A stretch of 46,145 nt of DNA from Candidatus Falkowiibacteriota bacterium (GTDB lineage Bacteria; Patescibacteriota; Patescibacteriia; XYB2-FULL-38-15), in the NCBI GenBank assembly GCA_016214745.1, contig JACRNW010000011.1, forward strand, positions 1 to 46,145, given 5' to 3'. The position numbers and the translations under genes are program-made. Under the pieces are notes generated by a model. The model did no database searches, was not told the DNA's origin, and worked only from the letters and a program-made list of their open reading frames with translations. The stretch's first letter is position 1. Each line of letters starts with the position of its first letter. Positions 8,789-35,577 of this stretch are shown here, in pieces.

Positions 8789-8826
8789 ATTGAAAATTTC
8801 TAATTTCTAAATTCTAATTTCTAAAC
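8789..8826. repeat. A/T-rich simple repeat (ATTTCTAA units)
   Basis: Imperfect tandem copies of (A)ATTTCTAA, a low-complexity filler between tRNA-Pro and rarA. Comparable A/T-rich strings occur at 14154-14178, 35577-35612 and 36373-36414. Confidence 0.5.
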
Positions 8827-10548: not shown

Positions 10549-12380
10549 GTAGATTTAGAGAGAGAAGAAATTTTCGCGAACCGCCAAGCGGCGGCGATCG
10601 CCGTTTAAAACTTATTCGGGTTATTATTTTTTTGTTCGCGGGAGTTATTGCTTTCCGCCTTTTTAGTTTACAAGTTTTGAGCAATGATTTTTATTCAGCG
10701 CTCGCGGCCGGACAGCACGATATTTATAAAGAAATTTTTCCCGAACGGGGAAGAATTTTGATGCAAGAGAGCGGCGGCAGTGAATCTTCAAATGAAAAAT
10801 TATATCCTTTAGCCACTAATCAATCGTTGTATCTCATTTATGTTGATCCCCGGAAAATAAAAAACGCCGATGAGCTGGCGGAAAAGTTAGTTGATATTTT
10901 ATATATGAGAGAAGTGAAAGAAGACGAAGGGTTGACCGCGGAAGAAATTGAAGCCATAGAAAAATCCGAGAAAGAAAAACTGAAAGAAGAATTTTTGGCA
11001 AAATTAAAAAAAGAAAACGATCCCTACGAACCCCTGCGCCACGGAGTAACCGAAGCGTCACTCGCGAAAATTAAAGAACTTGGAGCCGAGGGGATCGGTT
11101 ATATTGAAGAAGAGGCGCGTTATTATCCGGAAAATAATTTGGGCAGTCATTTTTTGGGATTTGTCGGAACGAAAGATAATAAAAAAGTCGGGCAATACGG
11201 GCTTGAAGGTTATTTTGAAAAAGAGCTCGGCGGCGTTCAGGGTTTTCTCGCCTCGGAAAAAGATGTGGGCGGTCGGTGGATTCCGGTTTCCGGACGAGAG
11301 TGGCAAAAAGCCGAGGATGGCGCGGATATTGTTATCACGATTGATCGGAACATTGAATATTTTGCTTGCGGAAAATTAAAAGAGGCCGTGGAAAGGAATG
11401 ATGCCGACGGAGGAACGGTTATTGTCATGGATCCGAAAACCGGAGCGATCATCGCGATGTGTTCTTATCCTGATTTTAATCCGAATGAATACGCCAAAGT
11501 GGAAGACATTAATATTTACAACAATCCGGCGGTTTTTTCTCAGTATGAACCAGGATCAATTTTTAAAGCCATCACGATGGCCGCGGCGCTGGACGTGGGA
11601 AAAATTACGCCGACGACCACTTATGTTGATGAGGGAGAAATAAAAGTTGATGATCGCACGATTAAAAATTCTGATTTGCAAGCGTATGGCACGCAGACCA
11701 TGACCCAAGTTTTGGAGATGTCCCTGAATACCGGAGCGGTTTTTGCCGTCGCGCAAATTGGTCCGGATATTTTTAAAAAATACGTGGAGGATTTTGGATT
11801 TGGGACGGAAACGGGGATTGAGCTTGATTTTGAAAATTCCGGCAGTATCAGCTCTTTGGATAAAAAGGGAAAAATTTGGAGCGCGACCGCCTCTTTTGGC
11901 CAGGGCATTTCCGTCACGCCGATTCAGGTCGTAACCGCGTTTTCGGCAATCGCGAACGGTGGGAAATTAGTTAAGCCGTATATTGTTGACCGGATTATAA
12001 AAAGTGACGGTGAGGTAATTAAAACCGAGCCAAAAGTTGTTCGTCAGGCGATTTCCGGAAGAACGTCGGCGCTTTTGGGAGGGATGCTTGTTTCCGTGAT
12101 AGAAAATGGTCATGGCAAGCGGGCTGGTGTTCCGGGCTATTATGTGGCGGGAAAAACCGGTACGGCGCAAGTCGCAAAAAAAGACGGCAGCGGTTATGAG
12201 AAAGACGTGACTATCGGATCGTTTATCGGTTTCGCGCCCGTGGAAGATCCAAGGTTTGTTATGTTGACAAAGATAGATCATCCAAGATCAACAATTTGGG
12301 CCGAAGCTACAGCCGCGCCGTTATTTGGCGAAATTGCCAAATTTATGCTAAACTATTTAAAGGTACCTCCGAGCAGGTAA
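10545..12380 (+). CDS. penicillin-binding protein 2 / FtsI-type transpeptidase
   Basis: 611 aa. A basic cytoplasmic N-terminus is followed by one membrane anchor (about 23-45), the pedestal region (60-260) and the transpeptidase domain. All three catalytic motifs are present: S338-I-F-K341 (EPGSIFKAITMA), S393-L-N395 (MSLNTGA) and K537-T-G539 (AGKTGTAQVAK). An insertion of charged helix (about 120-160, EDEGLTAEEIEAIEKSEKE) lies in the pedestal. It cross-links peptidoglycan outside the membrane. No separate PASTA domains. The start overlaps the upstream hypothetical gene by 4 bases; murF follows after a mobile-looking insertion, so an ancestral transpeptidase-murF order has probably been interrupted. 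Elongation (PBP2) versus division (FtsI) cannot be decided from the sequence. Confidence 0.92.
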   Translation: MSRFRERRNFREPPSGGDRRLKLIRVIIFLFAGVIAFRLFSLQVLSNDFYSALAAGQHDIYKEIFPERGRILMQESGGSESSNEKLYPLATNQSLYLIYVDPRKIKNADELAEKLVDILYMREVKEDEGLTAEEIEAIEKSEKEKLKEEFLAKLKKENDPYEPLRHGVTEASLAKIKELGAEGIGYIEEEARYYPENNLGSHFLGFVGTKDNKKVGQYGLEGYFEKELGGVQGFLASEKDVGGRWIPVSGREWQKAEDGADIVITIDRNIEYFACGKLKEAVERNDADGGTVIVMDPKTGAIIAMCSYPDFNPNEYAKVEDINIYNNPAVFSQYEPGSIFKAITMAAALDVGKITPTTTYVDEGEIKVDDRTIKNSDLQAYGTQTMTQVLEMSLNTGAVFAVAQIGPDIFKKYVEDFGFGTETGIELDFENSGSISSLDKKGKIWSATASFGQGISVTPIQVVTAFSAIANGGKLVKPYIVDRIIKSDGEVIKTEPKVVRQAISGRTSALLGGMLVSVIENGHGKRAGVPGYYVAGKTGTAQVAKKDGSGYEKDVTIGSFIGFAPVEDPRFVMLTKIDHPRSTIWAEATAAPLFGEIAKFMLNYLKVPPSR

Positions 12381-12381
12381 T

Positions 12382-12859
12382 CTACAAATTACAAATCATT
12401 TACAAATATACAAATAGCAAAATGACGGAGGGTTGTAAAAAAGATGTAAATAAGGTTGTCTACCCGGAATTAAGTTATAAAATAGTCGGTTTAATCTTTG
12501 ATGCGTACAACTCGCTTGGTTATGGTTATCAAGAAAAATATTACGGGCGAGCAATTGAGTTGGCCTTTAAGGAAAACGGAATTAAATTCATCGGTCAGCA
12601 GTTTGTGTCCATAAAAATTAATGGGAACACAATAGGTAGATATTTCTTAGATTTTTTGGTGGAAGATAAAATAATTTTAGAACTGAAAGTGGGTAATTAT
12701 TTTGACAAAACTAACATGGGCCAAGTTTTAGGATATTTAAAAGCTACGGACAAAAAATTAGCAATCATCGCAAACTTTACAAGAACGGGAGTAAAATTTC
12801 GCAGAATTTTAAATATTAATTGAGGATTTGTATATTTGTATTAAATTTGTAATTTGTAG
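12382..12859. mobile_element. GxxExxY element with 36-bp terminal inverted repeats
   Basis: The left end (12382-12417, beginning CTACAAATTACAAATCATTT) and right end (12824-12859, reverse complement beginning CTACAAATTACAAATTTAAT) are imperfect inverted copies that bracket a single GxxExxY gene. The element starts one base after the TAA of the transpeptidase and stops 5 bases before the murF ATG. A 110-bp version with the same two ends and no gene lies at 32792-32901 in the opposite orientation; each end matches at 35 of 36 positions. No clear target-site duplication is seen. Confidence 0.7.
12422..12823 (+). CDS. GxxExxY protein, PD-(D/E)XK nuclease-like
   Basis: 133 aa from the ATG at 12422. 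An in-frame upstream start inside the transpeptidase gene is rejected because it reads through the terminal repeat. The name-giving motif G35-YQ-E38-KY-Y41 is present, followed by RYFLDFLVEDKIILELKV with D77 and E87-x-K89, the layout of a PD-(D/E)XK nuclease core. The family is common in Patescibacteria and many other bacteria, and its biological role is not established. Here it is the only gene between terminal inverted repeats, so it may be the mobilising enzyme or a passenger. Its codon use is A/T-rich like its neighbours, unlike the GC-rich cassettes. Confidence 0.85.
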   Translation: MTEGCKKDVNKVVYPELSYKIVGLIFDAYNSLGYGYQEKYYGRAIELAFKENGIKFIGQQFVSIKINGNTIGRYFLDFLVEDKIILELKVGNYFDKTNMGQVLGYLKATDKKLAIIANFTRTGVKFRRILNIN

Positions 12860-23128: not shown

Positions 23129-23224
23129 AAACCCCTCACCCCAACCCTCTCCCCGGAGGGGAGAGGGAAATTTCCCATCGGGGGTCTCCTCGCCCCAGTG
23201 GGGAGAGGATTAAGGTGAGGGGGA
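23129..23224. repeat. CCCTCACC/GGTGAGGG repeat
   Basis: CCCCTCACCCCAACCCTCTC (from 23131) is loosely inverted by GAGAGGATTAAGGTGAGGGG (to 23222), with GGGAGAGG/CCTCTCCC and GGGGAGAC-type hairpins inside. Same family as 45966-46055. Confidence 0.7.
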
Positions 23225-32301: not shown

Positions 32302-32790
32302 ATGGATATAAAAGATAAAATAGAAAAAATCGGCGGACTGGAAGGCGCGGTTCCGGAGCATGAACGTCCGGCAATGCCTGAAAAAAAAGTTGAAGTGGAA
32401 AAACCGCCGATGCCGGAGTGGAAAAAAACCATTCCGACCGAAGAGGAGGCCGGAAAAAAGCCGCTCGTTGCCGCCGTAGTTCATCCGATTACGGAAAAGC
32501 CGGCAAAAAGCGAAACTTTGGTTAAAATTGAAAAAATTTTGGAAGAAGATCTTGAAGCATTTTATTTTTCCATGCCGCCCGAAGCGCGTTTGACTTTTAA
32601 GGCGAAGGGCGAGGAGACGGCTTCAAAAATAGAAAAGATGGTTGAAACGGGAAAAGTCATTGCCCGAAAAATTTTAAAACTGCTGCGCGTTTGGCTGAAA
32701 TTAATTCCCGGAGTGAATAAATTTTTTCTGGAGCAGGAAGCAAAAATTAAAACTGACGAAATAGTTTCTTTGGCGGAAAAGAAAAAATAA
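32302..32790 (+). CDS. conserved hypothetical protein, 162 aa
   Basis: The N-terminal half is low-complexity and Pro/Glu/Lys-rich (VPEHERPAMPEKKVEVEKPPMPEWKKTIP) and probably disordered. The second half is a helical domain (TLVKIEKILEEDLEAFYFSMPPEARLTFKAKGEETASKIEKMV; VIARKILKLLRVWLKLIPGVNKFFLEQEAKIKTDEIVSLAEKKK). The last 50 residues recur in Patescibacterial proteins encoded next to the VirD4/HerA-like ATPase, as here. No TM segment. Function unknown; a soluble partner of the ATPase is the contextual guess. The 110-bp derivative of the GxxExxY element starts one base after its stop. Confidence 0.75.
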   Translation: MDIKDKIEKIGGLEGAVPEHERPAMPEKKVEVEKPPMPEWKKTIPTEEEAGKKPLVAAVVHPITEKPAKSETLVKIEKILEEDLEAFYFSMPPEARLTFKAKGEETASKIEKMVETGKVIARKILKLLRVWLKLIPGVNKFFLEQEAKIKTDEIVSLAEKKK

Positions 32791-32791
32791 T

Positions 32792-32901
32792 CTACAAATT
32801 ACAAATTTAGTACAAATATACAAATCCTTGCTAACACGTTAATTTAATAGAAACACACTCCACCACTATTTGTATATTTGTAAATGATTCGTAATTTGTA
32901 G
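32792..32901. mobile_element. 110-bp geneless derivative of the GxxExxY element
   Basis: The left end (CTACAAATTACAAATTTAGT...) matches the right end of the 12382-12859 element, and the right end (reverse complement CTACAAATTACGAATCATTT...) matches its left end, each at 35 of 36 bases. It is thus an inverted, internally deleted copy of MITE type. Like the full element it starts one base after a TAA stop. Confidence 0.75.
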
Positions 32902-32907
32902 TCATTT

Positions 32908-35577
32908 ATGGAGGATTTGGAGAAAAAAAATTGGCAAAAAATTAAAAGATGGCTTCCGGGGACCACGCTCGCTGCGATTTTTGTTTTTTCTTTATACCAA
33001 ATTGCTATACCGGTGGGGGAGATTCCTCCGGAAGTCGGGAGTTTTGCCGAGAGTCCGATCGGGATTATGATTTTTACTTTAGCCGCGATTTTTTTAGGAT
33101 CGTGGTTTTTAATTTATTTGCTCAGAAGATTTTTGCATCATCGGACAAAAATGTCCACCTCTTTTCAAAATGTTGTTTTGCTCGTGACCGTGCCGAAAGA
33201 ATCTGCGGAAAGAGCCCAAGCTCAGGAAAAGAGAGAGATTACGGTTCAGACGATTCAAGAAGGAATTGCCACGGCCGAAGCGCTTTTTGCTTCAATTGGC
33301 GGATTGAAGGCGCAAAAGGGAATCGGCGCTTGGCTTACCGGGCGGACAGATTATCTTTCTTTTGAAATTATCGCCGACAAAGGGATGATTTCTTTTTACG
33401 TGGCCATGCCCAAATATTTGCAGGAATACGTGGAGCAGCAGATTAGGGCAAATTATCACGAAGCTTTTATTGAAGAAATCAAAGATTACAACATTTTCAC
33501 GCCGACGGGTGATATCCGCGGCGCTTATCTGACATTCCGCCGGCCGCATTTTTTTCCGATAAAAACTTATAAAAAAATGGAGACAGATCCCCTGAACGGT
33601 TTGACGAATGTTCTGTCAAAACTCGAAAAGAATGAAGGTGCGGCGATTCAATTTGTTCTGCGTTCGGCGCGCAAAGAATGGCGGCGGCCGGGAATAAAAA
33701 TCGCCCAGGAAATGCAACAGGGCAAAAAATTTGATGAAGCGATGAGGTCGGTCAGCGGAAATATTTTTATGAAAGTTTTAAGCGAACTCGGGAAGGCGTT
33801 TGCCGGAGGCGGAAAAAAGAAGCCCGAAGATCAGATTGCAAAACCTCAGCCGGAAATTTATCGCCTTTCGCCGATGGAAGAGGAGATGGTTAAAGGCCTT
33901 GAAGAAAAGGCGAGCAAGGCCGGGGTTGACGTAAATATCCGGATAGTTTCGTCTTCGCCGAATAGCGCGCGGGCAAAAATGAATTTGGATAACATCACGA
34001 ACGCTTTTTCCCAATATAATATTTATCAATACGGTAACAGTTTTGTTCGGACGGCGCCGGGCGGACGGGCGCTGAAGAGGCTGGTCAAAAATTTTATTCA
34101 TCGGGGTTTTTATGAAAAGAAAAAAGTAGTTTTAAATTCAGAAGAAGTGGCGAGTTTATTTCATTTTCCATCGCCGTGGACTGAAGCGCCAAACATCCGA
34201 TGGCTCTTGGCGAAAAAAGCGGCGCCGCCGGTTAATATGCCGAAAGAGGGGCTGACTCTCGGGAAATCAACTTATCGCGGCGTGGAAACTTTAGTCAAAA
34301 TTAAAAGGGAAGACCGCCGCCGTCATGTTTATATCATTGGTAAGTCCGGTGTCGGTAAATCCGTTTTGCTCGCCAACATGGCCAAGCAAGATATTCAAAA
34401 TGGTGAAGGCGTGGCTGTGGTTGATCCGCACGGCGATTTGATTGAAGATATTTTGACCGGCGTGCCAAAAGAAAGATTAGACGATGTGATTGTTTTTGAT
34501 CCGTCCGACGCCGAGCGGCCGATTGGTTTGAATATGCTTGAAGCCAAGGATGAGTCGCAAAAAGATTTTGCCGTTCAGGAAATGATCGCGATTTTTTACA
34601 AATTATTTCCGCCGGAAATGATCGGTCCGATGTTTGAACATAATATGAGAAACGTGATGCTGACTCTGATGTCCGATCTCCAAAATCCCGGGACGATTGC
34701 GGAAATTCCGAGAATGTTTTCCGATAATGATTTTCAAAAATCGTGGGTGGCGAAAGTTAAAGATCCGGTGGTCCGCGCTTTTTGGGAAAAAGAAATGGCC
34801 AAGACATCAGAGTTTCATAAATCAGAAATGTTGGGCTATTTGATTTCTAAAGTCGGCCGATTTGTGGAAAATGAAATGATGAGAAATATTATCGGCCAAG
34901 CGCATTCCGGTTTTGATTTCCGTGAGATTATGGATAAGAAGAAAATTTTGCTTGTAAATTTGGCAAAGGGCAGAACGGGCGAAGTGAACAGCGAACTTTT
35001 AGGTTTGATTATAGTTTCAAAACTTCAGATGGCGGCGATGAGCCGGGCCGAACTTCCGGAAGCCGAGCGTCATGATTTTTATTTATATATTGATGAGTTT
35101 CAAAATTTTATCACCGACAGCATCGCCACGATTTTATCCGAGGCGAGAAAATATCGGTTGTGCCTTACGATTGCCCATCAATACGTCGGGCAATTGGTAA
35201 AAAATAATGACACGAAAATTCGCGACGCGGTTTTTGGCAACGCCGGGACGATGGTGGCTTTTAGAATCGGAGTTGATGACGTGGAAACAATTGCCAAAGA
35301 ATTTGCGCCGACGGTTAACGAGTATGATTTATTGAACGTGGAAAAATACACGGCTTATATCAAACTTTTGATTGATAATGCCGCTTCAAAGGCGTTTAAT
35401 ATGCAAACTCTCGCGCCGCAAAAAGGCGACGCGGAATTAGCGCAAGCGTTAAAGCAACTCGCCAGATTAAAGTACGGCCGCGACAAGACAATCGTGGAAG
35501 CGGAAATTTCAGAGCGGACGCAGCTTGGAACTCCGGCGAGCGTGGCCGGGCCGATGGCGGGGGAACGGAGTTTGTAA
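32908..35577 (+). CDS. type IV secretion / HerA-VirD4-like DNA-translocating ATPase
   Basis: 889 aa. Two N-terminal hydrophobic segments (about 19-35 and 50-73) anchor it. A large middle domain (90-450) is followed by the motor: Walker A IGKSGVGKSVLLANM (G478-S485), AVVDPHGDLIEDIL, VIVFDPSDAERPIGLNML, and Walker B LYIDEFQNFI (D729, E730), then ARKYRLCLTIAHQYVGQL and FGNAGTMVAFRIG, all typical of the conjugative coupling or HerA class. Two conserved hypothetical genes flank it. Possible roles are DNA uptake or export, or a conjugation remnant. No relaxase or pilus genes are in the window, so a stand-alone translocase is more likely. Confidence 0.85.
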   Translation: MEDLEKKNWQKIKRWLPGTTLAAIFVFSLYQIAIPVGEIPPEVGSFAESPIGIMIFTLAAIFLGSWFLIYLLRRFLHHRTKMSTSFQNVVLLVTVPKESAERAQAQEKREITVQTIQEGIATAEALFASIGGLKAQKGIGAWLTGRTDYLSFEIIADKGMISFYVAMPKYLQEYVEQQIRANYHEAFIEEIKDYNIFTPTGDIRGAYLTFRRPHFFPIKTYKKMETDPLNGLTNVLSKLEKNEGAAIQFVLRSARKEWRRPGIKIAQEMQQGKKFDEAMRSVSGNIFMKVLSELGKAFAGGGKKKPEDQIAKPQPEIYRLSPMEEEMVKGLEEKASKAGVDVNIRIVSSSPNSARAKMNLDNITNAFSQYNIYQYGNSFVRTAPGGRALKRLVKNFIHRGFYEKKKVVLNSEEVASLFHFPSPWTEAPNIRWLLAKKAAPPVNMPKEGLTLGKSTYRGVETLVKIKREDRRRHVYIIGKSGVGKSVLLANMAKQDIQNGEGVAVVDPHGDLIEDILTGVPKERLDDVIVFDPSDAERPIGLNMLEAKDESQKDFAVQEMIAIFYKLFPPEMIGPMFEHNMRNVMLTLMSDLQNPGTIAEIPRMFSDNDFQKSWVAKVKDPVVRAFWEKEMAKTSEFHKSEMLGYLISKVGRFVENEMMRNIIGQAHSGFDFREIMDKKKILLVNLAKGRTGEVNSELLGLIIVSKLQMAAMSRAELPEAERHDFYLYIDEFQNFITDSIATILSEARKYRLCLTIAHQYVGQLVKNNDTKIRDAVFGNAGTMVAFRIGVDDVETIAKEFAPTVNEYDLLNVEKYTAYIKLLIDNAASKAFNMQTLAPQKGDAELAQALKQLARLKYGRDKTIVEAEISERTQLGTPASVAGPMAGERSL

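Follow-up and report, generated by a model that had tools for sequence, protein, structure and literature searches.

The gene-less 110-bp palindrome at positions 32792-32901 belongs to a family that is real, recently mobile and MITE-like, and the ends that it shares with an element carrying a GxxExxY gene point to bacterial mobile elements of a so far undescribed group, in which the nuclease encoded by that gene may be the mover. The window, i.e. the whole analysed stretch of 46,145 nucleotides, is contig C5 of the Candidatus Falkowiibacteriota genome G000 (923 kb, 95% complete) and is about 87% coding, a rough estimate from long open reading frames (ORFs). The palindrome occupies a 117-bp junction between an ORF ending with TAA at 32790 and a VirD4/TraG-like gene starting at 32908, and no ORF lies within it. 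Its left 36 bases match the right end of the GxxExxY element (read inwards from 12859) at 35 of 36 positions and the left end at 30 of 36; its right 36 bases match the left end of that element at 35 of 36 positions and the right end at 29 of 36. The sequence CTACAAATT is found four times in the window, always at ends of these two elements; 0.5 occurrences were expected, and no shuffle reached four. The first-pass annotation had given the coordinates, the 35/36 match at both ends and the lack of a gene, all of which proved exact in end alignments and an ORF check. Its remark that both copies begin one base after a TAA stop also holds, with the stops at 12378-12380 for the GxxExxY element and at 32788-32790 for the 110-bp element. 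Table 1 shows the features of both elements.

Table 1. Positions of the gene-bearing element, the gene-less element and their parts in the window.
Feature	Position	Strand	Length	Basis
Gene-bearing element with GxxExxY gene	12382-12859		478 bp	
Left (A-type) arm of gene-bearing element	12382..12415	+		
GxxExxY gene, predicted PD-(D/E)XK nuclease, candidate mobilising enzyme	12422..12823	+	133 aa	profiles, fold
Right (B-type) arm of gene-bearing element	12826..12859	-		
TAA stop of upstream gene and one T preceding the gene-less element	32788..32791	+		
Gene-less palindrome	32792-32901		110 bp	ends and inverted arms compared
Left arm, B-type end: CTACAAATTACAAAT-TTAG-TACAAATATACAAAT, four TACAAAT iterons	32792..32825	+		
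Interior of gene-less element, starting CCTTGCTAACACGTTAATTTA	32826..32867	+		
Right arm, A-type end: CTACAAATTACGAAT-CATT-TACAAATATACAAAT on the minus strand	32868..32901	-		
Six bases from the element to the ATG of the downstream gene	32902..32907	+		

Each arm is 34 bp long and follows the plan C-TACAAAT-TACAAAT-NNNN-TACAAAT-A-TACAAAT, which amounts to four iterons of about 7 bp (TACRAAT). The four-base spacer distinguishes the ends, being CATT at the A end and TTNG or TCGG at the B end. Across the genome, this pattern is matched 40 times, whereas its reversed control is never matched. The arm-pattern search, together with a query by the 110-bp element and a local scan, resolved 21 two-armed elements: 15 of 103-112 bp, four of 66 bp in which the two arms meet directly, one of 93 bp, and one of 478 bp, which bears the GxxExxY gene, the other 20 being gene-less. 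There are also at least two solo arms (C4:33681 and C9:59593). The description of the element as MITE-like and mobilised in trans is well supported as far as behaviour is concerned (many copies, no gene, and ends common to the gene-bearing element), with the nuclease as its putative mobiliser. In the 15 long copies the arms are near-invariant and the interior has diverged, a pattern which, on alignment of the copies, argues for selection on the ends or templated copying.

The interior of the 110-bp element is unlike the resident GxxExxY gene, and sharing is limited to the 36-bp ends; the ‘deleted derivative’ of the first-pass annotation is therefore no simple deletion of the resident copy. What the interior resembles is the gene start of a GxxExxY element in genome G144 (L360): its first 20 bases, CTTGCTAACACGTTAATTTA, agree at 19 of 20 positions with CTTGCTAACAAGTTAATTTA, the start of that frame (E = 2e-4, in a small set), and there the matching stretch adjoins the arm directly, as it does in the 110-bp element. 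This single match is only suggestive of an interior left over from a deletion in another subtype of GxxExxY element.

Comparison with relatives indicates the age of the insertions. The arms are absent from G001, the only same-genus genome in the set, and from G002, the only same-family genome; of the 57 relatives covered by the search, G024 was alone in having any arm at no more than two mismatches. Fused flanking peptides served to locate the orthologous gene pairs of G001 and G002, and the junctions were then compared. At none of the 21 sites was the same element found in either genome, with a few comparisons being ambiguous (e.g. C13:18125 in G001). The site of the 110-bp element is an empty junction in G001 (TAG-AATTTT-ATG), and most of the other orthologous junctions are short and empty in at least one relative. 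Since the same element is missing at the orthologous sites, most of which are plain empty junctions, the insertions in G000 are recent; copies fixed at orthologous positions, which had been named in advance as the observation that would speak against mobility, did not occur. Some orthologous junctions in G001 are filled by unrelated iteron palindromes, e.g. at the C8:109873 and C16:16914 sites, so that junction turnover must be fast and involve different element families, many of which may have their hot spots in gene junctions. Unrelated iteron palindromes or other repeats are seen in orthologous junctions at L156, L171 and L175 in G001 and at L159, L162 and L182 in G002. The site of the GxxExxY element itself, a PBP/Mur-ligase junction, holds in G001 (L150, C60:2000-4200) a different GxxExxY element with TACGAAT iterons, whose protein is by eye about half identical to that of the window, with flanks at 82-87% DNA identity. 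The arrangement suggests either a replacement or an independent arrival at the same junction.

Most copies with assignable neighbour genes lie in a gene junction, 1-6 bases after the stop and 3-7 bases before the start, and a few have larger gaps to the neighbouring genes; some automatic ORF ends overlap the arms via TTG codons in the arm and were taken as artefacts. A target preference for TAAT had been proposed, and the motif is indeed enriched, standing directly left of the element in 6 of 21 copies and directly right in 6 of 21, against a background of about 1%. Most copies are without it, the TAA need not be a stop codon, and the flanks beyond TAAT are merely AT-rich. Orienting the copies by element end or by transcription made the target motif no sharper. 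On the contig plus strand, the flanking base is T on both sides in most copies (17/21 left and 16/21 right), as at 32791 and 32902 in the window. No target-site duplication was detected, in that left and right flanks were no more alike than permuted ones at 2-10 bp (p = 0.07 at 1 bp), G001 and G002 being too diverged to rule out a duplication of 1-4 bp at single sites. The 110-bp element had also been called an inverted copy; this is borne out by the crosswise match of the ends, and no special meaning attaches to the opposite orientation, as copies run both ways relative to transcription (13 against 7).

The GxxExxY protein is a lone nuclease with a predicted PD-(D/E)XK fold. Its only profile matches are PDDEXK_3 (PF13366, 1.4e-25) and TIGR04256 (2.4e-27), and E38, D77 and E87-x-K89 are conserved in four close relatives. 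The structural model (mean pLDDT 82.5, from a shallow alignment) resembles lambda exonuclease (Foldseek 3e-5) and SSO0001 (Z 9.0). Profiles, model and fold matches revealed no known transposase or strand-transfer domain, and neither a sequence search of solved structures nor a phage search returned a match. We know of no established function for GxxExxY or S23 proteins, the latter being considered below. G000 has a second, distant GxxExxY gene, at C13:35678-35995 (L081), with TACGAAT-type arms.

The association between arms and GxxExxY extends across the class, in which 55 of 191 genomes have PF13366. On both sides of 55 of the 73 GxxExxY genes sampled there are iteron arms of a single class; the corresponding figures are 3 of 80 for control ORFs and 4 of 73 for reversed flanks. 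The iterons differ among elements (TACRAAT, TACAGAT, CACTGAA, GCGGAT, TACTAAT and others), and a plan of two pairs with few bases between is common to all types. On the protein tree the iteron class is clustered, with 16 changes against 22.8 when shuffled (0 of 200 as low), near relatives contributing to this clustering. The fixed four-iteron pattern occurs in 26 of the 191 genomes, and GxxExxY is found in 20 of these 26 as opposed to 35 of the other 165 (Fisher p = 5e-8; p = 2e-7 on omitting G122, whose sole arm flanks its gene), leaving six arm-bearing genomes without a GxxExxY match. When named genomes were scanned with nothing but the arm sequence, at least 93 contigs were hit, most from Patescibacteria; where the mate arm was found, there was mostly no gene between the arms. 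Three of these contigs, from other lineages (L212, L247 and L272), have GxxExxY genes, all of them inside such arms and encoding proteins 53-65% identical to that of the window. The proposition that the four proteins with this arm form one GxxExxY clade was rejected (AU test, p = 0.019). The same arm is also seen in a few contigs labelled Bacteroidetes/Sphingobacteriaceae and Caldithrix (L194, L220, L239 and L248), which could reflect transfer or mis-binning.

Gene-less families were also compared with the GxxExxY arms of their own genomes. Among 11 such families, the arms of the own genome rank first of 41 genomes in four (combined p = 0.004), only part of the GxxExxY genes of these genomes being sampled. 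The match holds in G000, G086 and G141, where two gene-less families each have a different local GxxExxY element as their match, and fails in G144, G189, G173, G050 and G126. The link between arms and GxxExxY is statistically strong, and from it we infer a causal role of the nuclease.

A parallel set of elements is built around S23 genes. PF05635 (S23) genes are present in 56 of 77 class genomes. Of the genes inspected, many are bounded by arms that follow this plan in another dialect (TAAG-, TAG- and AGCAAGACC-type), the S23 locus scan having failed to pick up the ORF at about half of its loci. In G000, the TAGAA dialect (TAGAANN x4) comprises S23 genes and the gene-less palindromes C8:90979-91077 and C16:32116-32197; further loci of this dialect are at C10:18947 and C11:28843. 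Within the window, a TAGAA-dialect arm at 8798-8823 (-) adjoins tRNA-Pro. An intergenic inverted repeat at 23132-23222, with GC-rich arms of 35 nt (CCCCTCACCCC...), is unrelated to the TACAAAT family. The S23 protein, a four-helix bundle, is to our knowledge not an enzyme. S23 is the ORF of rRNA intervening sequences (IVSs), and these sequences have been proposed to be of mobile origin (PMC4990558).

The 110-bp element is probably a non-autonomous mobile palindrome, formed by two four-iteron arms round a short remnant and moved in trans by a GxxExxY protein. The nuclease would bind the iterons as its cognate ends and would cut or nick there, possibly on a hairpin of single-stranded DNA; host repair or replication would then complete the insertion, and a GxxExxY protein reading the same iterons would mobilise the gene-less copies in trans. 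A broader proposal, advanced only tentatively, is that Patescibacteria have two large classes of iteron-armed palindromic mobile elements, one defined by the GxxExxY nuclease and the other by S23, that both classes include gene-less satellites and move without a known recombinase, and that iteron dialects co-evolve with the protein. As S23 genes lie in arms of the same plan and S23 is not a known enzyme, both GxxExxY and S23 could be passengers, picked up by palindromes that another enzyme moves, be it a Y1 transposase of the RAYT kind or the host's replication and repair enzymes acting on hairpins. This is unlikely, and it is the alternative that most deserves weight: two unrelated gene families have a common arm plan, some genomes have arms without a GxxExxY match, the undetected target duplication is as in hairpin-based transposition, and G000 has two Y1 transposase genes. 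RAYT genes typically have REPs or long TIRs on either side (PMC3733652); the two Y1 genes, however, have neither these arms nor a comparable hairpin beside them, which counts against mobilisation by RAYT/Y1. In addition, the arms carry CTAC on the 5' side, the reverse of REP polarity, each arm consists of direct iterons with no hairpin, and the iteron type follows the cargo protein.

Two further readings invoke the hairpin itself. Spread in the manner of IVSs, in which a long hairpin is either tolerated in transcripts or taken out of them and is propagated via RNA and reverse transcription, would accord with the strong hairpin fold of the 110-bp element (z = -4.6), with the probable co-transcription of the gene junctions that hold it, and with the presence here of S23 genes, known from rRNA intervening sequences (PMC4990558), in same-plan elements. 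Such spread is nevertheless very improbable: arm changes are never compensated (0 pairs changed on both sides in 15 copies, hence no covariation), conservation tracks the iterons and not the pairing, the 110-bp element has no Rfam match, and no element seen has a reverse transcriptase. Less credible still is an immobile cis-regulatory or transcript-stabilising hairpin under selection. Its placement between stop and start codons and its fold would suit such a role, but orthologous junctions are empty in relatives though the genes are conserved, the many copies stand in unrelated junctions, and the 110-bp element is without terminator-like features.

A search of the literature on GxxExxY, PF13366, and MITEs or palindromes in CPR genomes found no description of these elements. 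Among the class genomes searched, more than a quarter have GxxExxY and more than two thirds have S23, and iteron-armed elements with gene-less satellites give both proteins a testable function in end recognition and mobility. This bears on a long-standing question, namely whether the S23 ORF in rRNA intervening sequences has a role in mobility. If mobilisation by GxxExxY is true, a lone PD-(D/E)XK nuclease would join the short list of enzymes driving transposition, and the rapid turnover of gene junctions in genomes as compact as these would in large part be explained.

The 110-bp family works like a MITE or a REPIN and fails defining tests of both, having no detectable duplication and no known transposase on the one hand, and the wrong polarity and no flanked RAYT on the other. 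As in MITEs, the copies are short, gene-less and numerous, have terminal inverted repeats common to a gene-bearing element and differ in presence between relatives; unlike MITEs, they lack a detected target-site duplication, their partner encodes a PD-(D/E)XK nuclease rather than a known transposase, and their ends are four-iteron arrays whose sequence varies from element to element. REPs and REPINs are likewise intergenic palindromes dispersed in the genome, presumably mobilised in trans by an enzyme of their own (RAYT) with co-evolving ends. The terminal letters GTAG that they have in common with the 110-bp element are probably a coincidence. Here the order is 5'-CTAC...GTAG-3', the arms are direct iterons without hairpins of their own, the local Y1 genes are without arms, and the enzyme associated with the element is another nuclease. 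The 23S rRNA IVS, of about 430 nt, has terminal inverted repeats round one small ORF and is suspected to be selfish or mobile (PMC4990558). The S23 genes reported here lie in same-plan arms, but these elements stand between protein genes and have gene-less copies, and the 110-bp element is linked to GxxExxY, not to S23. CPR bacteria also harbour intron-like insertion sequences in rRNA genes with LAGLIDADG homing endonucleases (PMC11270868). These, too, are selfish insertions linked to a nuclease in the same bacterial radiation, whereas the elements described here are palindromes in gene junctions, associated with a PD-(D/E)XK protein rather than LAGLIDADG.
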